Below are positions 19,758 to 34,789 of a DNA stretch of 64,000 bases, in pieces. The stretch covers positions 415,820 to 479,819 of the forward strand of contig MTMB02000001.1 in NCBI GenBank assembly GCA_002011085.2, read 5' to 3'. The position numbers and the translations under genes are program-made. This DNA comes from Candidatus Geothermarchaeum rappei. GTDB taxonomy: Archaea > Thermoproteota > Nitrososphaeria > Geothermarchaeales > JDFR-13. The notes beneath the pieces are model-generated. The model did no database searches. It had not been told where the DNA came from and worked only from the letters and a program-made list of their open reading frames with translations. The stretch's first letter is position 1. The number at the start of each line of letters is the position of its first letter.

Positions 19758-20396
19758 ATGCACATTCCAGACGGGTTTCTGGATCCATGGATGGTTCTAA
19801 CCACGTTCTTAGTCGTCGGTGGATACACTATTATCTCATATAGGCGGATGGGAAGGCTGTCGATGGATAGAGTCTCCCTCTTATCATCATTCTCTGCTGG
19901 GATATTCGTGGCGCAGATGCTTAATTGGCCGTTGCCAGGGGGTACAAGCCTTCATTTAGTAGGTGGTGGATTAGCTGGGATATTATTAGGCCCCTATCTA
20001 GGGTTCTTCGCAATGTCCCTCGTCATCATTATACAATGTATAGTGTTTCATGATGGTGGGATCACCGCGTTGGGAGCAAATATACTGAATATGGCTATAT
20101 TGGGGGTGGTGACGGGGTATCTGGCGTATAAAATAGCTATATCAATTCTAGGTAAGAATAACAAAGGAAGGTTTATAGGCGGTTTTCTGGCTGGATGGCT
20201 AGGTATTGTAGTCGCTGGGTTGGCATGTGGTATAGAAATAGGCCTCTCGACATACTTTGGATTTAATCTTGATGTTACTATCCCAATAATGGTGTCTTGG
20301 CATGCAATCTTGGGGGTGATTGAAGGCCTCATTACTGCATTTATCGTCGAGTATATCCATACACGGAACCCTGGTATATCTTATCTGGAGGTGTAG
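19758..20396 (+). CDS. cbiM: CbiM/NikM-type substrate-binding membrane component of Ni/Co ECF importer
   Basis: Membrane S-component that binds Ni2+ or Co2+. It begins with MHIPDGFLDP; the N-terminal Met-His-Ile-Pro-Asp motif, with His2, coordinates the metal in this family. The protein has 212 aa and six or seven hydrophobic segments. It heads a four-gene operon: it is followed by a CbiN/NikN-like protein (3 nt gap), CbiQ (overlap) and CbiO (adjacent). Nickel is favoured over cobalt because the window also holds NikR and a [NiFe] hydrogenase, but sequence alone cannot settle the metal. Confidence 0.88.
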   Translation: MHIPDGFLDPWMVLTTFLVVGGYTIISYRRMGRLSMDRVSLLSSFSAGIFVAQMLNWPLPGGTSLHLVGGGLAGILLGPYLGFFAMSLVIIIQCIVFHDGGITALGANILNMAILGVVTGYLAYKIAISILGKNNKGRFIGGFLAGWLGIVVAGLACGIEIGLSTYFGFNLDVTIPIMVSWHAILGVIEGLITAFIVEYIHTRNPGISYLEV

Positions 20397-20399
20397 AAG

Positions 20400-20720
20400 A
20401 TGAGGGGACTAGATAAGCGGTATATGATTCTACTAGTGATACTAATATTGATTAGTCCTCTCTTCGGAGTCTATTTATCAGATTTAGTAGGTTATCATGA
20501 GCCTCTTGATCTAGCTGCTGAGCACATCGGTCTTCCTGATTTGAATGAGGAGCTTAACTGGACGCCCCTCTACGACTATGGTTTCCCCGCCTTGCATCCA
20601 GTGCTTGGATATATTGTCTCAGGCTTTATTGGAGTTGCCTTAATACTAGGGATTGGGATGCTTCTTACGAGGATTGTTAGTAAATCCGAGTGTGTTCTAG
20701 AGAATGAGGCTAAGGAGTAA
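20400..20720 (+). CDS. CbiN/NikN-like (PDGLE-type) accessory membrane protein
   Basis: A 106-aa protein with two hydrophobic segments (about 8-26 and 72-92) and an extracytoplasmic loop carrying GYHEPLDLAAEHIGL, the counterpart of the PDGLE motif of NikN/CbiN proteins. These small proteins help load the S-component with metal. Position three bases after cbiM and overlapping cbiQ supports the role. Sequence similarity is weak outside the loop. Confidence 0.72.
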   Translation: MRGLDKRYMILLVILILISPLFGVYLSDLVGYHEPLDLAAEHIGLPDLNEELNWTPLYDYGFPALHPVLGYIVSGFIGVALILGIGMLLTRIVSKSECVLENEAKE

Positions 20721-21504
20721 CTTATTCGATTATCTACTTCATTCCCTAGGAGAGATTTTCAGTCTATTATTTAGCGAACCTTCTAGATCAGTAAATATCC
20801 ATCCTGCTACTCTATTGATGATACTAGTCCTCCTATCCATATCTTCTTCGTTAACAGGCTCTCAACCCCTACTCACATTCTTTGCAGTGGTGTTAGCCAT
20901 GTTATCCATCTACCTAAGGATATCTATCTATAAGCTGGTCAAGATGATGCTCCTAATAGTTGTGATAACTATCTTAATATATTTGCCAATGACAGTCTAT
21001 CAAATTATAATCAAAAATCTCTCTCTAAATGAGACAGTCACCATCTTGATATATGGCAAGGGGTCCCTTGGATTGTTGATTATGAGGAGCTCTATAGCCG
21101 GTGGTTTCCTCATTTTAATACCATTATCCCTCGGGGCCCAAGGGATAGTTGCTGGGCTTAAATCAGCCGGGGTTAGTAGGGAGTCGATTCTCTTAATTAT
21201 GCTGACAATAAGGTCTATCCCGTCTATGATAAGGGAGGGAGTAAGACTTTTAGTTGGTAGGCGCTCCAGAATATTGGTTGAGGATAAAGGGATGTTATCA
21301 CTCTGGAGACTCTTCTCTACAGTAGCTGGTGAGCTTCTCATTAGGAGTATATATCGGGGGGAGCGGCTTAGACATACACTTGAATGTAGGATATGGATGG
21401 ATTCACCATTTTACAGCAACCCTATTTCAACAAGGGATATGATGATCATCCTCATGATGTTAGGGCTCATAATAATAACTATGGTGTTTATGGAGGGTCT
21501 TTAG
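20704..21504 (+). CDS. cbiQ: CbiQ/NikQ transmembrane energy-coupling (EcfT) protein
   Basis: The EcfT-type coupling protein that links the S-component to the ATPase. Hydrophobic helices occur at about 38-70, 80-98, 130-150 and the C-terminal end. The cytosolic ATPase-contacting region includes RSIPSMIREGVRLLVGRR and a following RGERLRHTLECR, similar to the Ala-Arg-Gly motif region of the family, though the exact motif is diverged. It overlaps the previous gene by 17 nt and abuts cbiO, indicating coupled translation. Confidence 0.82.
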   Translation: MRLRSNLFDYLLHSLGEIFSLLFSEPSRSVNIHPATLLMILVLLSISSSLTGSQPLLTFFAVVLAMLSIYLRISIYKLVKMMLLIVVITILIYLPMTVYQIIIKNLSLNETVTILIYGKGSLGLLIMRSSIAGGFLILIPLSLGAQGIVAGLKSAGVSRESILLIMLTIRSIPSMIREGVRLLVGRRSRILVEDKGMLSLWRLFSTVAGELLIRSIYRGERLRHTLECRIWMDSPFYSNPISTRDMMIILMMLGLIIITMVFMEGL

Positions 21505-22317
21505 ATGGATTGTGGCACACCTCTCTACATTTGTAGAGATGTATCATATACCTATCCAGATGGTTCCGCCGCTCTGGATAACGTGTCTCTAGAGATATGT
21601 CGAGGCACCTCCACAGCTATAATAGGTGTTAATGGTTCTGGTAAGTCTACTCTACTACTAATACTATCTGGATTGCTTAACCCTAGTAAGGGAAGCATCT
21701 TGTATAAGGGTGTGCCTCTAGATAAATATAGGGGTTTACGGCGGGAAGTAGGCATCGTGTTTCAGAATCCAGAGGATCAGTTTATAACATCTACTGTCTA
21801 TGAAGAAATTATATTTGGGCCGAGGCAGCTAGGCCTAGAAGATGATGAGTTAGAGTCTATTGTTGAGGAGGTATCAAATCAATTCATGGTTAAAGATCTT
21901 CTCGGGAAATCACCTTTTAGATTGAGTGGAGGGGAGAAGAGAAGGGTAGCCATTGCATCAATCGCATCATATGATCCAGAGATTTTTATCTTGGATGAGC
22001 CTTTCCAAGATCTTTCACTAAATTATAAGATCATGCTGATAAAATACTTGGTGAACAAAGCACGTGAGGGTCATACAATCATCTACTCATGTAATGATAC
22101 TGATATTCCAATATTCTTCGTAGATTATATAGGAATCCTCTATAGAGGGAAGTTAATTGCATATGGAGAAGCCGGTGATATAATTAGAGACATGGATCTA
22201 CTTAGGAGTGCGGAGCTAGATACTTCTATTCTCAAGACATTCTACCGGTTGCTGGATAATGAGGATGTTAATATCCCATTTAGTATCGACATTCTAGATA
22301 AGATACTGGATTTGTAG
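21505..22317 (+). CDS. cbiO: CbiO/NikO ATPase of the Ni/Co ECF importer
   Basis: ABC ATPase driving the importer. Walker A is GVNGSGKST near residue 45, the Q-loop is in VFQNPEDQF, the signature is LSGGEKRRVAIA, and Walker B is IFILDEPFQDL. The usual switch His is replaced: YSCNDTDI stands where family members show a THD-type motif, an oddity that could reduce hydrolysis or be compensated. The gene abuts cbiQ without a gap. A 69-bp AT-rich gap follows before the AlaX gene. Confidence 0.85.
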   Translation: MDCGTPLYICRDVSYTYPDGSAALDNVSLEICRGTSTAIIGVNGSGKSTLLLILSGLLNPSKGSILYKGVPLDKYRGLRREVGIVFQNPEDQFITSTVYEEIIFGPRQLGLEDDELESIVEEVSNQFMVKDLLGKSPFRLSGGEKRRVAIASIASYDPEIFILDEPFQDLSLNYKIMLIKYLVNKAREGHTIIYSCNDTDIPIFFVDYIGILYRGKLIAYGEAGDIIRDMDLLRSAELDTSILKTFYRLLDNEDVNIPFSIDILDKILDL

Positions 22318-23112: not shown

Positions 23113-24000
23113 CTATCCATCTAACTCTTTTAACACCTCTAGAAGCTTCTCAATAACTTTATTAAATTCTATTGTAAAAGGACTCTCTAGGTTTTTAATA
23201 AGGAATATTTCCCCCCTATCAGCTGATCCAGCTATATTTGGGTCAATAGGTATTCTGCCCAGAAGTGGAATTGAGTATTTATCTGAAAGCATCTGCCCTC
23301 CATCGCCTGGAAACACCTTATAGACCTTATTCTCAACTGGGCATAGGAATCCACTCATATTTTCCACTATTCCCAAGATCCTCACACCCGATTTCCTAGC
23401 GAAGTCAATTGATTTAGCGACGGATATCGCCGAGACTTCTGTTGGCTGTGTCACCGCAATCAACCCGGTTAGACTCGGTAGAGTCTGAACAAGGTTAATA
23501 GCCTCATCTCCTGTACCTGGAGGTAAGTCGATTAGCAAGAAGTCAAGGTATCCAAATAATGTTGAGGCGAGTATCTCCTCCAGGAAACTCTTTTTAAGCG
23601 GGCCTCTCCAAATAACCGCTGTAGTTGGATCAGGAAGGAAATAATATATGCTCATAACCTTGATTCCCAATGGCCCCTCCACGGGAATAAACTTCTTGTC
23701 TTCAGTGACTAAGACTCTCTCATCTTCAAGGCCAAGTATCTTTGGGATGCTTGGACCGTGAAAATCACTATCTATAACTCCTACTTTATACCCTTTATTG
23801 GCAAGAGCCACGGCTAAATTAGCCGTTACAGTAGACTTTCCAACTCCACCTTTTCCACTGATCACCCCAATTTTATACTTTATGTTCTTCATAGACTCCT
23901 CTATCAGCCTCTGCTTTGTCTTCATCGTTATCAAGGCTTGTAGTTTCTTCTTAGCTTCTTCCTTGGAGACCCCCGGTTTCACAGCCAATTTAAACACCAT
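23113..24000 (-). CDS. Mrp/NBP35-family Fe-S carrier ATPase
   Basis: P-loop ATPase of the Mrp/ApbC/NBP35 type, which binds and transfers [4Fe-4S] clusters. The deviant Walker A motif is SGKGGVGKST (about 49-58); DSDFHGPSIPKILG and LIDLPPGTGDE are further family motifs. A short helical leader (1-45) takes the place of the N-terminal DUF59 domain seen in some Mrps; a separate DUF59 protein is encoded at 6135-6458. The usual C-terminal CxxC is not obvious; a single Cys occurs in ENMSGFLCP. A second Mrp-like gene at 33613-34401 is assigned to hydrogenase maturation. Confidence 0.87.
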   Translation of the reverse strand: MVFKLAVKPGVSKEEAKKKLQALITMKTKQRLIEESMKNIKYKIGVISGKGGVGKSTVTANLAVALANKGYKVGVIDSDFHGPSIPKILGLEDERVLVTEDKKFIPVEGPLGIKVMSIYYFLPDPTTAVIWRGPLKKSFLEEILASTLFGYLDFLLIDLPPGTGDEAINLVQTLPSLTGLIAVTQPTEVSAISVAKSIDFARKSGVRILGIVENMSGFLCPVENKVYKVFPGDGGQMLSDKYSIPLLGRIPIDPNIAGSADRGEIFLIKNLESPFTIEFNKVIEKLLEVLKELDG

Positions 24001-24156: not shown

Positions 24157-24408
24157 ATGGGTATGAGTATCGGAGTGTCAAGCTCAGACATTGGCTTTAT
24201 GCTTGTGGTATCAGGATTCATATTGGTATTTATAGGTATGGTGATGCTCTCTCGAGGCAGAGGTAAGGGAGGCGGAATATTATTAATCGGCCCTATACCA
24301 ATTATATGGGGAAGTGACAGGGAGAGCTTGAAATGGATTGCGCTTATATTCGCTTTACTAATCTTCATTTACATAGTCTTCTCACTCTTCTGGCTTTATC
24401 GGCCTTAG
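24157..24408 (+). CDS. DUF131 (TIGR00304-type) small membrane protein
   Basis: An 83-aa protein with two membrane segments separated by a short loop, KGGGILLIGPIPIIWGS, which is the mark of the archaeal DUF131 family. Function unknown. A second copy of the same loop occurs in the next gene, which follows after 10 nt, so the two form an operon of related membrane proteins. Confidence 0.75.
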   Translation: MGMSIGVSSSDIGFMLVVSGFILVFIGMVMLSRGRGKGGGILLIGPIPIIWGSDRESLKWIALIFALLIFIYIVFSLFWLYRP

Positions 24409-24418
24409 GTGGTCTAAG

Positions 24419-24838
24419 ATGAGTGACAGGGCCCGGGAAATCCCCTTGTGTGACCTCTGTGGAACTAGGGAAGCAGAGTATGTATGTAAGGGCTGTGGAA
24501 GACTTGTATGTAGAGTTGATTTTGACTACTCTACGGGTCTATGTAGGTCTTGTAGTGAAGATTTTAAGCCTCTTGTGCAGGTTGAAGGTGACATTTTTAG
24601 GGATATGATCTTGCCCACAATATTTATATTCCTAGGTTTTATACTGATATTCATTGGTTTTATATTATTATCCACGCCATATTTGGGTGCGATTCCGGGT
24701 AATGGAGGGGATTTTATCGTGGTTATTGGTCCTCTACCCATTCTATTGACTGGGCAGATCGGGTTATTGGCGGCAGTAATATACCTTGTTTTCATGATTA
24801 TAGTAATCTACTTACTTTTTAAATGGTTCTTGAAATAA
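24419..24838 (+). CDS. B-box-like zinc finger fused to DUF131-type membrane domain
   Basis: A 139-aa protein. Residues 10-42 form a Cys-rich finger (CDLC, CKGC, then C and CRSC), resembling B-box or AN1-like zinc fingers. From about 62 on there are two membrane helices with the loop GGDFIVVIGPLPILLTGQ, the same DUF131 signature as the preceding gene. The fusion places a finger on the cytosolic or external face of a small membrane protein. Its last 31 bases overlap the convergent citrate synthase-like gene. Function unknown. Confidence 0.65.
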   Translation: MSDRAREIPLCDLCGTREAEYVCKGCGRLVCRVDFDYSTGLCRSCSEDFKPLVQVEGDIFRDMILPTIFIFLGFILIFIGFILLSTPYLGAIPGNGGDFIVVIGPLPILLTGQIGLLAAVIYLVFMIIVIYLLFKWFLK

Positions 24839-25713
24839 TCACTTAGCCTTCTACCTATAGGGCCCTTATACACTAGCTTATCAGGGACATCCCTGTAGCT
24901 ACTTGATTCAAGGATATAGGCTAGCATTCCGAATAACCCTGGTATCGATAGAATATCCGGCATATTACTAAGGATTCCATATTGCTCAAACAACAAGGGT
25001 GTATACAAGTCTATATTCAGATATTTGCCGCGTTCTCTCTTGATATTTCTCTCCATACTTTTTATTAAATTATATTTTTCTAGAAACGGTTTATCCCTTA
25101 ACTCACTGTGCACAACTTCCCTGATTATATTCAGTATATGTTGATTATAGTCCCTACAGTATTTTTTAATGAATGAGTCTTTGACCTCATTACCAGTCAT
25201 GAGATCCAATATGATTTCTTTATAGATAGTGGCTACCTTCTCAATATCCTTTTTTAGCCCGATACGATAATTGTTTAAGACATCAATGTAATTAACCCCC
25301 AATAACACATCCTTCAAAACCTTCAAGGTATCTTCATAGCCACGAGTATCTAAATATAAAATTAATATCTTCTCAAGGCCCCTTAGGACTTCAACTCTGC
25401 TGAATACTGATGAGATGAATAGCCCATAAACATCTGGTGATAGATGATTCTCCAATATACTATTAATTACTTCTCTAATCACCACATTGGCTCTATCTCC
25501 ATGGGTATTTGACGTCATATATCCCAGTATCTCAGAATGCGTGTGATATTCCCCTGATATTAGAAAATATGCTGTTTCTAAGAATGAGAAGTTATTGTTT
25601 ATAAAATCCTCTATGGGAAATCCCCTGTAATATATTCTTCCAAGCCATGGATGATGATAACTAATCTCTGTATCTACAATATATTTATCTCCCTTGGTCA
25701 TGGCGTCATACAA
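24808..25713 (-). CDS. Degenerate citrate synthase homologue
   Basis: A 301-aa protein whose ends match citrate synthase. Residues 11-58 (VDTEISYHHPWLGRIYYRG, IEDF, FSFLETAYFLISGEYHT) follow the N-terminal pattern, and GKYLNIDLYTPLLFEQYGI (about 231-249) mirrors the NVDFYSG region with the catalytic Asp, ending in VYKGPIGRR. The middle is about 75 residues shorter than normal. I cannot find the two catalytic His motifs (ADHE-like and GPLHGGANE-like) or the GFGHRVY motif. It is probably not an active citrate synthase. It lies 51 bp after pgk on the same strand. It could bind CoA or regulate a partner; the role is unknown. Confidence 0.7.
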   Translation of the reverse strand: MYDAMTKGDKYIVDTEISYHHPWLGRIYYRGFPIEDFINNNFSFLETAYFLISGEYHTHSEILGYMTSNTHGDRANVVIREVINSILENHLSPDVYGLFISSVFSRVEVLRGLEKILILYLDTRGYEDTLKVLKDVLLGVNYIDVLNNYRIGLKKDIEKVATIYKEIILDLMTGNEVKDSFIKKYCRDYNQHILNIIREVVHSELRDKPFLEKYNLIKSMERNIKRERGKYLNIDLYTPLLFEQYGILSNMPDILSIPGLFGMLAYILESSSYRDVPDKLVYKGPIGRRLSDYFKNHLKSK

Positions 25714-25764: not shown

Positions 25765-27120
25765 CTATTTCTGCATCTCTAGTATCCTGTCGATGCTGGG
25801 ATATGCCTCGCCAGCCATTCCATGTAGGAAGGATCCGCCGCTGACGCAGAGAATTCCCCCTGTACTCATTATAATCCTATCAAGTCCATACATTGCTATT
25901 TCAGCAGTTGTATCTCCACCTAGGAATATTAGTCCATTTCCAGCTATCATTTTTGTAAACCTGACGCCATTATCAAATCCTCTCTCAAAGACTCCAAGCG
26001 GGCCCGCTCTAATTCTAATCTCCTTTCCCTCCACTTCCTTGGCGTACCACTCGACTGTCTCTGGCCCGATGTCGAATATCACTCCCTCAGTCTTATTTAT
26101 CTCTTTTAACGATACCTCCTTCTTCTCACCATTTTCAACAACTATAAAGTCTTTTGGATACCTTACATTGAATTTCTTTAGAAGGAGTTTTGCGGCTTCA
26201 AAATCCTTGTCCTTAAATTTCCTTCTCAAGAATCTATTGTTTACTTCATTTAAGTCATGCCCATCTGCATATGCAAGTAGTTGTCCAGGTAATCCACCGG
26301 TGTATCCATCTGCCCACTCAAGTATCTTAACAAGATAGTTTATCTTAGCTAGTTTGGAGCCTCCCATTATAAGCGCTACATCCCCACCCTTATTCTCTAG
26401 AACCTCATTTAAGGTCTTCAGCTCCAGAACCGACCTAACTCCTACATATGTAGGGGCTACATATGGTAATGCCATTAGACTTGTATGAGCCCTGTGCCAT
26501 ACTGGTATCGCATCGTTAACGGCTGTCTTTATCAACCCTCTAAAGAACCTGATAAATTTACTTGTCTCTGGGTTAAATTCCGTCTCTTCATCCATCATAC
26601 GGATATTATCAAGTAATATTATTCTTCCCCTATCTAGATCCTTAATCTTCTTCTTTGTTTCTTCGGTAAAAATCTCGTCAAAAGGTATGAACTCTATGTC
26701 AATATAAGACGGTAATAATTTCCTAAGGATTATCCAATGTTGTTTTAGACTTATAAAATCTTTCTGTCCCTTTCTTCCTTGGTGTGCTACAGCCACTATT
26801 CCCGCGTACTCAGAGACTAGTGTTAGGACATCCGCATATACATTTAGTCTATAACTATCTTCTACGATGCGTCCATTAACCACTGGTATATTAATATCTA
26901 TTCGCATAAGTGTCGGTGTATCCATCTGCCGAGATAAATTGATTAACCAGAAATCTCTGGTCTCGTTATAATAATCCTTCAACCGCCATCCCCCCGCCTT
27001 AAATAGCCTCATGAGAGGGTAAGATACTAAATATAATTTATCATGTAACGTCATTAATAAAGTATCCTTAAAAATCTCATCAAATTTTCTCCTATTTTTA
27101 TAAAGACTTTTAAACACCAA
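25765..27120 (-). CDS. pgk: Phosphoglycerate kinase
   Basis: Interconverts 1,3-bisphosphoglycerate plus ADP and 3-phosphoglycerate plus ATP. Recognisable motifs are MRIDINIPV, VAHQGRKG, LLDNIRM, VNDAIPVWHRAH, GGSKLAKI and the nucleotide-site segment FLGGDTTAE followed by STGGILCVSGG. The family's final STGGGA is altered here. Length is 451 aa against about 410 for most archaeal Pgk; the excess is a 70-residue N-terminal extension before the first strand. Starts at 27120 or the internal ATG at 27054 are possible. It lies six bases after the zincin stop and before the citrate synthase-like gene, forming a three-gene unit. Confidence 0.9.
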   Translation of the reverse strand: MVFKSLYKNRRKFDEIFKDTLLMTLHDKLYLVSYPLMRLFKAGGWRLKDYYNETRDFWLINLSRQMDTPTLMRIDINIPVVNGRIVEDSYRLNVYADVLTLVSEYAGIVAVAHQGRKGQKDFISLKQHWIILRKLLPSYIDIEFIPFDEIFTEETKKKIKDLDRGRIILLDNIRMMDEETEFNPETSKFIRFFRGLIKTAVNDAIPVWHRAHTSLMALPYVAPTYVGVRSVLELKTLNEVLENKGGDVALIMGGSKLAKINYLVKILEWADGYTGGLPGQLLAYADGHDLNEVNNRFLRRKFKDKDFEAAKLLLKKFNVRYPKDFIVVENGEKKEVSLKEINKTEGVIFDIGPETVEWYAKEVEGKEIRIRAGPLGVFERGFDNGVRFTKMIAGNGLIFLGGDTTAEIAMYGLDRIIMSTGGILCVSGGSFLHGMAGEAYPSIDRILEMQK

Positions 27121-27126
27121 AAATTC

Positions 27127-27486
27127 TCATGAAGACCTGGTTGCTTTATTTTTTGATAATGTTCTGATTTTAAAGGCCTGTATGAAGGAAGCGGCATATT
27201 TATCTGCATTCTGTTCAGTGCCTCTATGTCTCATATCCTGATACCTTAAATGATGATAATATTCATGTAGGACGACAAATGGGTTATTGAACAGCTCGCC
27301 ATTCTGTATCACGATTGTCTTCGTCCTAGGTAAATATACAGCTAATGCTCTAGATTTTCCTTTGACCCTGCCCACCTTAATCTTAGGTGGATCGATTCCA
27401 TATGAATCAGATAGTCTTTTAATGGCCTCAATAGTCTTTCCTTGGATTATCATAGAAACAATCTCTGCTTTAAAATCATCATCCAT
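27127..27486 (-). CDS. Small HExxH zincin-like metalloprotein
   Basis: A 119-aa protein with a VVLHEYYHHLR motif (HEYYH, residues about 73-77) and, 15 or so residues on, EQNADKYAA, a possible third metal ligand. The shape resembles minimal zincins of the SprT or phage-type metallopeptidase group. No signal peptide. It is the first gene of the zincin-pgk-citrate synthase-like unit. Proteolytic activity is likely from the motif but not certain. Confidence 0.65.
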   Translation of the reverse strand: MDDDFKAEIVSMIIQGKTIEAIKRLSDSYGIDPPKIKVGRVKGKSRALAVYLPRTKTIVIQNGELFNNPFVVLHEYYHHLRYQDMRHRGTEQNADKYAASFIQAFKIRTLSKNKATRSS

Positions 27487-28923: not shown

Positions 28924-29328
28924 TTAATCTATTTTGGATAATATATGCCTTAGGATCTTTATCCCACGTTTTTCCTCCAACTCAACTATTAATGATTTTA
29001 TTTTTGATATACTGCCTCTGACAACGATTATCTGCAGGCAGTTAGCCTCATCTAGATGTACATGGAGAGTTGATATGATTATATCTATGTAATCATGCTG
29101 AATATGGGTAAGTTCATGTTCTATATTTCCAGCATGATGCTCATATACAATAGCGATTATACCTACTGCTTTTCCTTCTTCGAGTAAGGCGCTTCTCTCT
29201 ACGATATATATGTTTAGCGCCTCGTTTATCAGTCTTGATCTACTTGTGTATCCCATGGCTTCCATGAACTGGTTTAACTTTTCTAATAGGTCCTTATCTA
29301 GGGTGACTCCAGTCTTAACTGTTCCCAT
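28924..29328 (-). CDS. nikR: Nickel-responsive regulator NikR
   Basis: Ribbon-helix-helix repressor with a C-terminal ACT-like nickel domain. The N-terminus (VKTGVTLDKDLLEKLNQFM) is the DNA-binding ribbon and helix. His78, His89, His91 and Cys97 have exactly the spacing of the square-planar nickel site in E. coli NikR (His76, His87, His89, Cys95). Length 134 aa is typical. GAGGAGGTGA precedes the ATG. It is divergent from the hydrogenase operon and presumably controls it, the importer at 19758-22317, or both. TACATATGTA at 29365-29374 lies just upstream and might be an autoregulatory site. Confidence 0.93.
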   Translation of the reverse strand: MGTVKTGVTLDKDLLEKLNQFMEAMGYTSRSRLINEALNIYIVERSALLEEGKAVGIIAIVYEHHAGNIEHELTHIQHDYIDIIISTLHVHLDEANCLQIIVVRGSISKIKSLIVELEEKRGIKILRHILSKID

Positions 29329-29611: not shown

Positions 29612-30691
29612 ATGAGTATTAGTAGACGTGATTTCTTAAAGATAGCCGCTGCTACAAGCGCGGCTTTCGTGCTTTCGCAGTACAAGGCTGACATAATTAA
29701 GGTCTTTGCTCAGAAAGGAGATTATGTCCATATCTGTTGGCTAAACGGAGCTGCTTGTACGGGTTGTAGCGTTTCACTTGCCCAGGCTGCAGACCCTGAT
29801 CTCCTTGAGGTCTTGATGAGCATAACTACATATACCTCTGGGTTGCCTATAGCGTTACCAGATTGGATGTATGTTGTTCACCCCGCTTCTGGGACACTTG
29901 CAGTGGAGTATATAAATGATTGGATAGCGCATGAGGGGCCTGGACCTAAGATCCTGGTTGTGGAAGGGGCTATGCAGATGCCTGGTTTCTGTGAGACTGG
30001 GGGGAGGGACTTTAGAGACTGGGTCAAAGATGCGGCGGCAGCCGCTGACTATATTGTTGCTTTTGGCTCATGCTCCTCATATGGTGGAATTCCACATGCA
30101 AAGGGTAATCCAACGGGTGCTATGGGCGTACAAGACTTTTTAAAGGAAGTTGGCATGGCTGATAAGGCTGCTGGAGTGGTAAATCTACCACGTTGCCCTG
30201 GCCACCCAGATAGCCTGATACTAACATTAGCCAGTCTATTACAGGGAGTAGTGCCTGAGCTAGATGAATATAATAGGCCAAAAGCCTTCTACGGAAGGAA
30301 TATCCATGAGGAGCAGTGTCCATTCAGGGCATTCTATGACCGGGGAATATTCGCCGACTATGGTGATAGCGAGCATGGATGTAGATTTAAGATCGGTTGT
30401 AAGGGACCCGCGACATGGGCAGATTGTCCAACGCGTAAGTGGAACGACCATACATCCTTCTGTATTGAAGTCGGCGCTCCATGTATAGGATGTTCGGAGC
30501 CGGCGTGGCCCGATGGAGACTTTGCACCGTTCTTCGTAGAGCTACCGCAGGTACCGACGCTACTAGGATATCCTGCGGAGACATGGGGCACTGCATTCGC
30601 TGGAGCCGCAGCCCTGGGCGTGGCAGTCCACTTAGCCCGTAGAGCAACTAGGAAAAAGAGTGGTGAAGAGAAGGAGGAGGGAGGTGAATAA
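29612..30691 (+). CDS. [NiFe] hydrogenase small subunit, Tat-exported
   Basis: Electron-transfer subunit of a membrane-bound uptake hydrogenase. The twin-arginine signal SRRDFLKIAAA (residues 4-14) sends the folded dimer outside the membrane. Proximal-cluster ligands begin with CTGC (49-52); the distal cluster has IHEEQC and HGCRFKIGC, and the medial one FCIEVGAPCIGC. The CTGC lacks the extra cysteine (CTCC) typical of oxygen-tolerant group 1 enzymes, so this one is probably oxygen-sensitive. A C-terminal hydrophobic anchor (about 325-345) and a charged tail finish it. The large subunit starts three bases after the stop. Confidence 0.95.
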   Translation: MSISRRDFLKIAAATSAAFVLSQYKADIIKVFAQKGDYVHICWLNGAACTGCSVSLAQAADPDLLEVLMSITTYTSGLPIALPDWMYVVHPASGTLAVEYINDWIAHEGPGPKILVVEGAMQMPGFCETGGRDFRDWVKDAAAAADYIVAFGSCSSYGGIPHAKGNPTGAMGVQDFLKEVGMADKAAGVVNLPRCPGHPDSLILTLASLLQGVVPELDEYNRPKAFYGRNIHEEQCPFRAFYDRGIFADYGDSEHGCRFKIGCKGPATWADCPTRKWNDHTSFCIEVGAPCIGCSEPAWPDGDFAPFFVELPQVPTLLGYPAETWGTAFAGAAALGVAVHLARRATRKKSGEEKEEGGE

Positions 30692-30693
30692 AG

Positions 30694-32421
30694 ATGCCGT
30701 CTTTTAAAGTTGATCCAATAAGTAGGATAGAAGGACACTTGAAGATTGAATGTAAGATTGAGAGGGTTCCTGACCTTAACAACGAGTATTTCGTGACAGA
30801 ATGCCGCGCACCAGTGACGATGTTTAGAGGATTCGAGATATTCATGGTTGGTAGAGATCCTAGGGATGCGCTGTTATTCACACCTAGAATATGTGGTGTA
30901 TGTCCAAATCCCCACAGCATAACATCTGCAATGGCCCTAGACGATGCCTTTGATGCTGTTCCACCGCCTGCTGCTATCTTAGTTAGGAATATAGAGGAGG
31001 CGGCTTACTATATCTATGACCACTTGATCCACTTCTATCTATTGATAGGTCCCGAGCTGGGAGTTATAATGGGTCCAGAATATGGTGCCCCCATACTACC
31101 TCCAGTCGCAGGTACTGCTGGCCTTGCACAGGGTATTGGAACTCACTATGCAAAATGTATAGAGGTTCAGAGGAGGGCTAATGAAGTAGTGGCGATGTGG
31201 GGAGGCAAATTCCCACATGTAACAAGCTATTATCCTGGAGGGGTTCTTGTAGAGCCTACTCTCGATAGGATCACAAATACAATTACTTCACTTGTACCAC
31301 TATGGGAGTTCGTCGCCTTAACCCATATGCAGGATATTATGAACCTACTCGAGGCTAATGAGAGGCTTAAAGAAGTTACCGAAGCAGTTCTCGGTGTGAG
31401 GGTCGGGTTGGAAGATATAGGCGTTGGGACGGGTAACTTCCTATCATTTGGAATGATGCCGCAGACCGATAACTATGAGGGAGACTGGCTAGAGACCTCC
31501 AATAGAAATAATTCACTTATAAAAGCTGGAGCATTTTACGATGGTTCTAGGCACTCACTTGATGAGAACAAGATCACCGAGGATGTTAAATACTCTTTCT
31601 ACGATGTTCCAGATGGACTACATCCATGGGATGGCGTGACAGTCCCCAATAAGGATAAGCCTGGTGCATATAGTTGGACTAAGGCGCCTAGATACGATAA
31701 TAAGGTGTTTGAAGTCGGTCCATTAGCGAGGATGCTAAATACATTCGGAATGGAGTGGAGAATTCCAAGGGTACATCCAATCACTGGAGAGAACTATGGT
31801 GATTTTGTGTACAGGGTTAGAAACCCCAAGGGATCTGTCTTGGACAGGATCGTTGCGAGAGCAGCATGTGTACTCCTCACTGCAAACGCTGTCTTCCAGT
31901 ATGTCAATGAACTAGTGAGCCTTGTTAAAGAGGGTAAGACCGAGGTTATGAATAAGAAGCCGGTGCCTAACGAGGCTAAGGGAAGGGGTCTATGGGAGGC
32001 TCCAAGAGGCGCGTTAAGCCACTGGGTCAAGATCAAGGACCATAAGATAGCTCATTATCAGTGTGTCGTGCCAGGTACATGGAACTGGAGTCCCAGGGAT
32101 AGTCAGGATAGGCCGGGGCCCGGTGAATCCGCTATTCAGTGTGGAACCACTTGGGTGCCTACGCTTAATGTAATCCAAATAGCCAACGCTCTATACTCAG
32201 GATGGGGAGATGTCTTGGCTCAGGCATTGACAACCCTCAATCCAAAGTATGCAAACCTGAATATGGAGCCTACGGAGACCGGTGAGTATGTGAATGCAAC
32301 CATAGCGCTTCTTGTAGTGAGGTCATTCGATCCATGTCTGGCATGTGGTGTCCACATCATTACTCCGAATAAGAAGACCTACGTTTTTGAAGTTGGCCAC
32401 GGACTATGTAGCATCTATTAG
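30694..32421 (+). CDS. [NiFe] hydrogenase large (catalytic) subunit
   Basis: Carries the Ni-Fe active site. The four cysteine ligands are Cys67 and Cys70 (RICGVCPNPHS) and Cys548 and Cys551 (DPCLACGVH). His554 marks the maturation cut; the 21-residue C-terminal peptide after it would be removed by the protease at 33122-33616. Length 575 aa and the presence of a Tat-bearing small subunit and cytochrome b place it among group 1 uptake hydrogenases that send electrons to quinone. Its stop is seven bases before the cytochrome b GTG. Confidence 0.96.
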   Translation: MPSFKVDPISRIEGHLKIECKIERVPDLNNEYFVTECRAPVTMFRGFEIFMVGRDPRDALLFTPRICGVCPNPHSITSAMALDDAFDAVPPPAAILVRNIEEAAYYIYDHLIHFYLLIGPELGVIMGPEYGAPILPPVAGTAGLAQGIGTHYAKCIEVQRRANEVVAMWGGKFPHVTSYYPGGVLVEPTLDRITNTITSLVPLWEFVALTHMQDIMNLLEANERLKEVTEAVLGVRVGLEDIGVGTGNFLSFGMMPQTDNYEGDWLETSNRNNSLIKAGAFYDGSRHSLDENKITEDVKYSFYDVPDGLHPWDGVTVPNKDKPGAYSWTKAPRYDNKVFEVGPLARMLNTFGMEWRIPRVHPITGENYGDFVYRVRNPKGSVLDRIVARAACVLLTANAVFQYVNELVSLVKEGKTEVMNKKPVPNEAKGRGLWEAPRGALSHWVKIKDHKIAHYQCVVPGTWNWSPRDSQDRPGPGESAIQCGTTWVPTLNVIQIANALYSGWGDVLAQALTTLNPKYANLNMEPTETGEYVNATIALLVVRSFDPCLACGVHIITPNKKTYVFEVGHGLCSIY

Positions 32422-32428
32422 GTGATAC

Positions 32429-33082
32429 GTGGTGAAGCGGGTTACGATAAAGAGGCACCTACTAGGTACAAGGATACTGCACTGGGCTATTGTTATTGAG
32501 GGCATTATACTTGGATTAACAGGGATGCAGCTTGGTGGAATCTGGGGAGTCAGAGTATTCCCTGGAGGAGGAGTATGGGCGATACACGTGGTCACAGGCC
32601 TTGCGTGGATATTCACCGCTCTCTTTCTGGTATATTACCTCGTGGCAACTGGAGAGTATAAGTGGTATGATTGCAGAAGACTTCCCTATGCATGCCGCTA
32701 CCTATATCAGGAGATCAAGGCGTGGTTCGGTCTTGGAGAGCATGTTCATGAGCCAATTAAGTACGATGAGAAAAAGGGCGAGTATATTGAGAAACTCGTC
32801 CCTACAGAGATAATCGTCTGGTGGCTATTCGTAGTGATAGGAGTCATTATAATGTTCTCAGGACTGGGCATGGCTTTCCCAGAGCAGTTCCTACCCCTGC
32901 TACAATTCTTCGATAGCCTAAAATATGTCTTCGGGGGAGGTGCCTATTCGATAGCGAGGTCAATGCATCTAATAACGATGTTCATAATACTGGGGATATT
33001 CATCCTTCATCTCTATGCAGTGTTTCTCTATAAGATGGTCAGGGGAATTATATTCGGCGACCGTGAGGAGCCAACCATATAA
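32429..33082 (+). CDS. Hydrogenase cytochrome b subunit
   Basis: Membrane diheme cytochrome b that passes electrons from the small subunit to quinone. Four membrane helices are visible. Candidate heme ligands are His18 and His53 in the first two helices and His180 and His194 in the last, a pattern like HyaC/HydC. The large loop (about 80-125) is cytosolic and charged. Start GTG at 32429 has a GGTGAT just before it. A T-rich tract follows the stop. Confidence 0.87.
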   Translation: MVKRVTIKRHLLGTRILHWAIVIEGIILGLTGMQLGGIWGVRVFPGGGVWAIHVVTGLAWIFTALFLVYYLVATGEYKWYDCRRLPYACRYLYQEIKAWFGLGEHVHEPIKYDEKKGEYIEKLVPTEIIVWWLFVVIGVIIMFSGLGMAFPEQFLPLLQFFDSLKYVFGGGAYSIARSMHLITMFIILGIFILHLYAVFLYKMVRGIIFGDREEPTI

Positions 33083-33092
33083 TCCCCCAAGA

Positions 33093-33117
33093 ATCTTTTT
33101 ATTCATTTCTTTCTTTC
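33093..33117 (+). terminator. Possible T-rich terminator after the hydrogenase structural genes
   Basis: TCTTTTTATTC followed by TTTCTTTCTTTC lies just after the cytochrome b stop. Archaeal transcription often ends at such T-tracts. The protease gene starts five bases later, so termination may be partial and would set protease levels below those of the structural subunits. Confidence 0.3.
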
Positions 33118-33121
33118 ATTA

Positions 33122-33616
33122 ATGGATATGAAGATGAATAAACCTCCTTTCATAATAGTCGGAGTAGGGAATATCCTATGTTCCGATGAAGGCATCGGCG
33201 TCCATATTATCAACAGACTTAAGGAGATGGATCTCCCAGACTATGTAGGTTTATATGACTGTGGCACTAATGGGATAGCTGTTTTGGAGGCTTTAGACGG
33301 TTGTAAGAAGGGTCTAATTATAGATGCGGTTTCAATGGGTGGTCCACCTGGAAAAATATATCGATTTAGTGTAGATGATATCCTCGGGATGGAGGATAAT
33401 CTATTTAAACTGGTTTCTCTCCATCAGTTCGATCTAATCTCCACATTGAAGGTAGCCCAAATAACAGACGTATATAACCTTCCAGAGGACATAGTTATAA
33501 TTGGTATAGAGGGTAAATCATTTGACTTTAGCCTTGAGCTGACAGATGAAGTCGCAAATGTGATTCCCGATGTAATTAGGATTGTTATGGATGAGATAAA
33601 GTCGTTTAAGGGCTAG
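33122..33616 (+). CDS. Hydrogenase maturation protease (M52)
   Basis: Nickel-dependent endoprotease that trims the large-subunit C-terminus once the metal centre is built. Metal-binding residues by family position are Glu23 (GNILCSDEGIG), Asp68 (LIIDAV) and His101 (SLHQFD). Length 164 aa is standard. Starts at 33122, 33128 or 33134 are all in-frame ATGs; no clear ribosome site picks one. It is the last gene of the hydrogenase block and converges with a four-base overlap on the hyp operon. Confidence 0.92.
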   Translation: MDMKMNKPPFIIVGVGNILCSDEGIGVHIINRLKEMDLPDYVGLYDCGTNGIAVLEALDGCKKGLIIDAVSMGGPPGKIYRFSVDDILGMEDNLFKLVSLHQFDLISTLKVAQITDVYNLPEDIVIIGIEGKSFDFSLELTDEVANVIPDVIRIVMDEIKSFKG

Positions 33617-34401
33617 TCTAGTAACGTTGTCTTTTTTAGACACTTTTCGAGTTCTAATCCAAATCGTGTTGATGTAATTTTATCTGCTCTCCCTTCATCT
33701 GCATATAGCGAGGCCTCTGGATCAATTGGAAGGCTACCTAGGAAATGTATGTTATATCTTGATGCCAAGTCCTTTGCCGCATCTACACCGAATGGAGAGA
33801 CCTTATTATCCTGGAGCTCAAGTCTAGACATATTCTCGATAATACCAATTATCTCTACACCCGTCTCATTCAACAGCCTTATCAGCCTGTCAACCACCTT
33901 TAGAGAAAGTTTGGAAGGCGTGGTCACTAGTATGACTCCCCTCCTACCCCTAAGATACGTGAGAGAGGCTAGTAGGACGTCTCCTGTCTCGGGTGGCATA
34001 TCCACTACAAGCACATCTGTTTCTCCCCAGTGTGTTAAAGCCAGTAACTCCTTTATAATCTCCCTCTTCTCTTTACCACTAACTGGAATCGGCCTTCCCT
34101 CCACAAATTGGTCTATAGACATTACCTTTACTCCTTCAACGACTGGTGGTATAAGCCCCTCTTCTTCTTCACTAGGCATCTCCAGATCCCCATATATCAC
34201 GCTTGATGAGGGGCCGTGGAAGTCTAGATCCAGTAGGCCCACGCTCAGGCCGTTCTTAGCTAGGATCAGGGCTGTGGTGGCAGATACGAGGCTTTTACCT
34301 ACCCCGCCTTTACCGCTGGCCACCAATAAAATATATTTGATCGTTTTCAACCTCTTGGGTATAAGAACCTCTCTATAATCGATTTTACTCCTCGAATTCA
34401 A
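33613..34401 (-). CDS. hypB: Mrp/MinD-type HypB (archaeal nickel-insertion ATPase)
   Basis: P-loop ATPase with SGKGGVGKS (deviant Walker A), LLDLDFHGPSSSVIYG and VVDMPPETGD. In Thermococcus kodakarensis the HypB role (nickel delivery with HypA) is filled by a Mrp/MinD-type ATPase, not the bacterial GTPase. Here the gene overlaps hypA by 17 bases and no GTPase-type hypB is in the cluster, so the same assignment is made by context. The alternative is a plain Mrp Fe-S carrier, but one is already present at 23113-24000. 262 aa. Confidence 0.8.
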   Translation of the reverse strand: MNSRSKIDYREVLIPKRLKTIKYILLVASGKGGVGKSLVSATTALILAKNGLSVGLLDLDFHGPSSSVIYGDLEMPSEEEEGLIPPVVEGVKVMSIDQFVEGRPIPVSGKEKREIIKELLALTHWGETDVLVVDMPPETGDVLLASLTYLRGRRGVILVTTPSKLSLKVVDRLIRLLNETGVEIIGIIENMSRLELQDNKVSPFGVDAAKDLASRYNIHFLGSLPIDPEASLYADEGRADKITSTRFGLELEKCLKKTTLLD

Positions 34402-34789
34402 CGTAACTCACCCTTATTCCCCTACCAGATCTAATCTCCAGGTCCCTCCCACCGCATTTGGGGCATCTAGAGAATGAGGAGACTAGTTCTGGGAGGAAAT
34501 GAATCATCTCCTTCTCATTTTCGCCAAGGGGTTCTATCAAGTCTGAGAATCCCCATGTAGATTCACATGACTTACATAGCACATCTGCCTTCTCAACCTC
34601 AACATCCACTTGGGTATCTTCTAAGATAGAGCCTTTTTTAACTTCATTGAGTAACTCTTCAATTAAGGCCCTATCAAAACTAGCTAGTTCCCCTACGGCT
34701 ACAGTAAACCTAAGGATTTTCTTATTCTCCTTCCTAGCTAGGTTTGAAACCGCCTCTATTATTCCACTTACAATGACGAGTTCATGCAT
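34385..34789 (-). CDS. hypA: Hydrogenase nickel-incorporation protein HypA
   Basis: Nickel chaperone that works with HypB. It starts with MHE, whose N-terminus and His2 coordinate nickel. The zinc domain has CKSC and, after a long insertion (about 35 residues), CPKCGG; this enlarged linker is typical of archaeal HypA. Length 134 aa. It overlaps the Mrp-type hypB, which matches their physical partnership. Confidence 0.93.
   Translation of the reverse strand: MHELVIVSGIIEAVSNLARKENKKILRFTVAVGELASFDRALIEELLNEVKKGSILEDTQVDVEVEKADVLCKSCESTWGFSDLIEPLGENEKEMIHFLPELVSSFSRCPKCGGRDLEIRSGRGIRVSYVEFEE

Follow-up and report, generated by a model that had tools for sequence, protein, structure and literature searches.

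A degenerate citrate synthase-fold protein lacking nearly all active-site residues, encoded opposite a B-box-like membrane protein in one family of Nitrososphaeria

Few enzymes of central metabolism are as conserved as citrate synthase (CS). The described proteins closest to the one analyzed here are the archaeal type II-like CS (PF00285; PDB 6aby from Metallosphaera sedula, 1o7x from Sulfolobus solfataricus and 2p2w from Thermotoga maritima), together with citryl-CoA lyase and 2-methylcitrate synthase of the same superfamily (NCBIfam NF004864 and TIGR01800). A more general parallel is offered by metabolic pseudoenzymes, non-catalytic paralogues that are kept as scaffolds or regulators; no pseudoenzyme of CS was found in the literature searched.

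Here, we analyze a gene in a window of 64,000 nucleotides, the whole stretch of DNA under study, which is part of the single-contig, 1.58-Mb genome of Candidatus Geothermarchaeum rappei. Its product, hereafter pseudo-CS, has the fold of archaeal type II-like CS and shares with them the N-terminal ISY...YYRG hairpin region, the C-terminal NxDxY helix and the YxG strand, but it is about 79 residues shorter, is missing the active-site His and Arg residues and carries a single long predicted helix at the site of the catalytic GPLHG turn. Its resemblance to citryl-CoA lyase and 2-methylcitrate synthase consists of weak N-terminal matches, which score 22-31 bits where the cut-offs are 261 and 421, and the catalytic His of these enzymes is likewise gone. 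With metabolic pseudoenzymes in general, pseudo-CS has in common a retained fold, a lost active site and purifying selection, whereas it differs from them in being lineage-specific and tied to the gene of a membrane protein with a B-box-type zinc finger.

A short CS kept at one chromosomal position suggests that an old enzyme fold has been reused for a new, undescribed non-catalytic job. The reading that we tentatively prefer, with somewhat less than even confidence, is that pseudo-CS is a third, degenerate CS-fold member, specific to one Nitrososphaeria family and fast-evolving yet under purifying selection, which would act, together with the B-box and DUF131 proteins encoded beside it, as a soluble scaffold or adaptor that has no catalytic role. 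The comparison covered a small sample, eleven genomes from one family (f1), most of the relatives being MAGs: genus g1 (the window genome, G000, and its sister G001), g2 (G002, G006, G008), g3 (G003), g4 (G004, G007, G009, G010) and g5 (G005).

Relationship to citrate synthase

The pseudo-CS gene (24808-25713, minus strand) encodes 301 residues from a TTG start at 25713, with an alternative in-frame ATG at codon 5 (25701). As a preliminary description made from the window sequence had stated, it lies downstream of the phosphoglycerate kinase gene, pgk (25765-27120, minus strand; PF00162, 182 bits); the distance is 51 nt, and the strand is shared. That description also took the product for a CS homologue about 75 residues too short, and both points were confirmed: in an HMM search the protein passes the Pfam Citrate_synt cut-off (E=1.1e-13, 51.4 bits against 27), its best PDB sequence match is a CS, and a full-length CS from the same archaeal family has 380 residues. 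The Pfam match is carried mainly by the N-terminal 60 residues, and the PDB CS alignments extend over two parts, the hairpin region at the N-terminus and the C-terminal stretch NIDLYT...YKG, in agreement with the CS likeness that had been described for both termini. The NCBIfam cut-offs for CS, methylcitrate synthase and citryl-CoA lyase were not reached (best 38.6 bits against 502); profile-profile comparison of pseudo-CS with CS gave an E-value of 3.4e-9, against 0.4 for a reversed-column control. A second, intact CS, which the preliminary description had proposed to look for, is encoded in the same genome at C1:304006-305076, with both GPLHG and GFGHRVY present.

The predicted structure points in the same direction. 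An AlphaFold model from five homologues had a pLDDT of 72.8 and a pTM of 0.75, and one from ten homologues, with the g4/g5 proteins added, had values of 80.7 and 0.82. All 50 of the 50 matches listed by Foldseek were CS or methylcitrate synthase (best E 1.9e-8), and the moderate TM-scores against CS structures, 0.5-0.65, are consistent with a reduced, rearranged CS.

Loss of the active site

The active site was mapped by MAFFT, run in three modes, with the five g1/g2 proteins aligned against 19 intact CS of related genomes and residues given in pig CS numbering. In every mode, six of the seven mapped active-site residues are absent from all five proteins, namely the His of AEH (H238), GPLHG (H274) and GFGH (H320) and the Arg of DPR (R329), SR (R401) and RP (R421'), and the columns aligned to H274 and H320 hold K/E/D and R. 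The sole catalytic-site residue retained is D235 (pig D375), the N(I/V)D Asp, in the YLNIDLYT segment (25000-25023, minus strand); it is present in g1 and g2 and not kept in the g4/g5 homologues. The GFGHRVY CoA/catalytic loop is lost. In CS, the N-terminal region and the LILHAEH helix are separated by a segment that carries dimer-interface helices, and pseudo-CS lacks much of this segment. Both AlphaFold models predict a single long helix at residues 142-172 (25198-25290, minus strand; in the better model, block values of pLDDT are about 84-95), and, judged from secondary structure and alignment, this helix probably replaces the GPLHGGAN turn that bears the first catalytic His.

The absence of GPLHGGANE- and GFGHRVY-like motifs had been remarked upon in the preliminary description, and it withstood alignment, neither catalytic His being in place in any of the three modes. 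Its suggestion that catalysis had been lost is strongly supported by the absent residues and the predicted structure; from these, it is close to certain that pseudo-CS would be without citrate synthase chemistry, and in vitro the protein would presumably show no catalysis.

The accompanying proposal of a CoA-metabolite sensor found no such support. A sensor for CoA-thioesters or oxo-acids, in which a retained ligand pocket signals metabolite levels, could build on the kept CS fold and on the NIDLY Asp of g1/g2, and in g4/g5 the divergent neighbor of the gene is an ADP-forming acyl-CoA synthetase. However, every mapped oxaloacetate/citrate ligand is lost, including the oxaloacetate-binding His and Arg residues, along with the GFGHRVY loop, and no regulatory domain is seen in the protein. 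Because these ligand residues are gone and the Asp is not retained in g4/g5, we regard a sensory role as very unlikely.

Another possible reading is that the CS scaffold supports some other reaction, carried out by residues outside the citrate synthase set. Purifying selection on the gene, documented below, and the ISYxHP motif conserved in g1/g2 would both fit such an activity, but T15, G31, Y282 and G284, the only residues invariant across ten family members, form no obvious catalytic set, and we consider it quite unlikely. These four residues would also be thin for a conserved binding site, and comparison of the ten proteins revealed no surface motif that is conserved.

Distribution and selection across the archaeal family

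A pseudo-CS homologue is present in 10 of the 11 family genomes, representing four genera, and in all of them it is convergent with the B-box gene. Sequence-profile searches recognized orthologues in g1 and g2 only, with Pfam Citrate_synt scores of 35.7 bits in G001 and of 23.1 bits and lower in g2, against the cut-off of 27. The g4/g5 counterparts, found by reading gene neighborhoods, encode 261-293 residues at the same convergent position and have no Pfam match; their profile aligns with that of g1/g2 across 216 columns at an E-value of 2.3e-7 and a score of 55.6, where the best of 100 column-shuffled controls scored 22.3. Against intact CS, the score is 36.7, compared with a maximum of 23.7 after shuffling. 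Detectability thus grades from Pfam-detectable in g1 through sub-threshold in g2 to invisible in g4/g5, where the link is by profile-profile comparison only. Since intact CS, a Pfam-visible remnant, a sub-threshold form and an invisible one make up a graded series at one position, the loss of the active site and the drift of the fold past sequence detection can be traced stepwise. Several “hypothetical proteins” of the family are CS-derived; automated annotation would miss them in two genera and might mislabel pseudo-CS as citrate synthase in another.

Outside the family, wider profile searches of up to 400 genomes of the class and 398 of the phylum matched intact CS only, a combined profile gave no comparable match outside the family among 300 genomes of the class, and a scan of further genome contigs matched the sister genome G001 alone; a first-look genome search may overlook extremely diverged members in other genomes, having initially overlooked those of g4/g5. 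A short CS in genome G017 (L013) was rejected as another case, because only a break of the reading frame at the GPLHG motif, probably a sequencing error, splits a CS that is intact in other respects (L013:985-1752 and 549-1016). Within the family, G003 is the sole genome without pseudo-CS and has a different membrane protein in its place. The CS-A tree groups it with g1/g2 and the Mrp tree with g4, and since it falls inside the family in both, loss of pseudo-CS is likelier than late gain.

The short form is conserved in relatives, a point on which the preliminary description had called for a check: the G001 orthologue is an intact, full-length reading frame, equally short and 71% identical to that of the window. 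Between these two genomes, dN/dS over the whole pseudo-CS gene is 0.15 (Nei-Gojobori). Four neighboring genes have lower values (pgk, 0.04; B-box, 0.05; DUF131, 0.07; Mrp, 0.02), so pseudo-CS is under purifying selection, but a weaker one than its neighbors. The equally short orthologue and this ratio rule out a frameshift or assembly error as the cause of the short middle.

The protein evolves fast: its g2 versions are 38-44% identical to one another, where those of pgk are 86-88% identical. This rate, the loss in G003 and the constancy of the 3' overlap with the B-box gene would be in keeping with the view that a gene of little function is slowly decaying and is kept through that overlap. 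We find such decay unlikely, as dN/dS is 0.15 across the whole gene, the reading frame is open in ten genomes of four genera, the predicted fold is confident, and an overlap of 31-45 nt would shield the last 10-15 codons only.

The CS tree has long branches and does not place the origin of pseudo-CS among the CS paralogues. An origin by decay of CS-B was ruled out, since CS-A, CS-B and the short gene coexist in g4. CS-B, a second intact CS, adjoins isocitrate dehydrogenase in g3/g4 (G003, G004, G007, G009 and G010; L063, L064-L067); g1 and g2 are without CS-B but have isocitrate dehydrogenase.

Most genomes of the family, g1 included, have a full-length CS, and, the fold being shared, pseudo-CS might form hetero-oligomers with it and tune it as a regulatory subunit, like the non-catalytic subunits of some metabolic enzymes. 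Against this stands the loss of much of the segment that carries dimer-interface helices in CS, and the CS genes lie elsewhere in the genome, unlinked. Moreover, G005 and G002 keep pseudo-CS with no intact CS found, an absence that is uncertain in MAGs 84% and 74% complete, respectively; on this evidence, pseudo-CS could do without a CS to pair with, and a regulatory subunit appears improbable.

Gene neighborhood and a possible adaptor role

The gene that converges on pseudo-CS (24419-24838, plus strand) encodes a predicted two-TM membrane protein, its TM helices judged by eye, with a B-box-type zinc finger. Its Pfam matches, zf-B_box (0.0009) and others, are sub-threshold, and as the zf-B_box score of 19.8 bits falls below the curated cut-off of 24.1, “B-box-like” is a descriptive name only. 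Homologues occur in all 11 family genomes and are essentially family-restricted, and six Cys are invariant across 12 of these proteins. G009 and G010 carry the gene as a tandem duplicate (L080, L081). The 3' ends of the B-box and pseudo-CS genes overlap by 31 nt in the window (24808-24838), and by 31-45 nt in 10 of the 10 genomes that have the pair. Upstream of the B-box gene, and adjoining it in the family genomes examined, is the gene for a small DUF131 membrane protein (24157-24408, plus strand; PF01998, 44.5 bits); the order DUF131, B-box and convergent pseudo-CS is kept in those family genomes with contigs long enough to include it. Beyond DUF131, at the end of the module away from pseudo-CS, a gene for an Mrp/NUBPL-type P-loop NTPase (23113-24000, minus strand; PF10609, 283 bits) is conserved in g1, g2 and g4.

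On the other side of pseudo-CS, pgk is the upstream neighbor in g1/g2 only and is not adjacent in g3, g4 or g5. In g4/g5, the 5' neighbors are a divergent ADP-forming acyl-CoA synthetase pair and TYW3, of which the short G005 contig includes the acyl-CoA synthetase beta subunit and TYW3 only. Since the 5' neighbor varies by genus while the B-box/DUF131 side is fixed, pgk is not a constant partner. The pgk link of the preliminary description therefore stands for g1/g2 and fails as a general rule, the B-box gene being the constant element, and pgk is weakened as a candidate functional partner by its non-adjacency in g4/g5. The g4 phosphoglycerate kinase (L024-L027) is itself a different version, 30-35% identical to that of the other genera (L017-L023), which it replaces. 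Upstream of pgk in the window, a 119-residue protein (27127-27486, minus strand) has an HEYYH motif (HExxH, zincin-like) and no significant Pfam match. No PADLOC match pointed to a defense system.

The conserved gene order suggests that pseudo-CS may be a physical partner of the B-box module. As a scaffold or adaptor, its CS-type helical core would hold a partner, and the Zn-finger membrane protein would anchor pseudo-CS. Adjacency is weak proof of partnership, because convergent overlaps lack co-transcription and the order may persist as the overlap resists rearrangement; in addition, G003 has B-box and DUF131 genes but no pseudo-CS, so the module can function in its absence. A bolder form of the adaptor reading, to which we give distinctly less credence and which we regard as doubtful, is that an uncharacterized, family-wide CS-fold pseudoenzyme, invisible to sequence searches in half of its genera, works as soluble partner to a membrane complex of the B-box and DUF131 proteins, the fold of a TCA-cycle enzyme having been turned into an adaptor.

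Elsewhere in the window, another Mrp/NUBPL-type ATPase gene (33613-34401, minus strand) adjoins a HypA-like gene, at the place where HypB would be expected. Mrp-type substitutes for HypB are known in some archaea, and this gene possibly encodes one. A CbiM-type transporter cluster (CbiM by Pfam, members other than CbiM and NikR being named from sequence only) and NikR lie near a [NiFe] hydrogenase and maturation cluster (19758-22317, 28924-29328 and 29612-34789), an arrangement that suggests a nickel supply unit.
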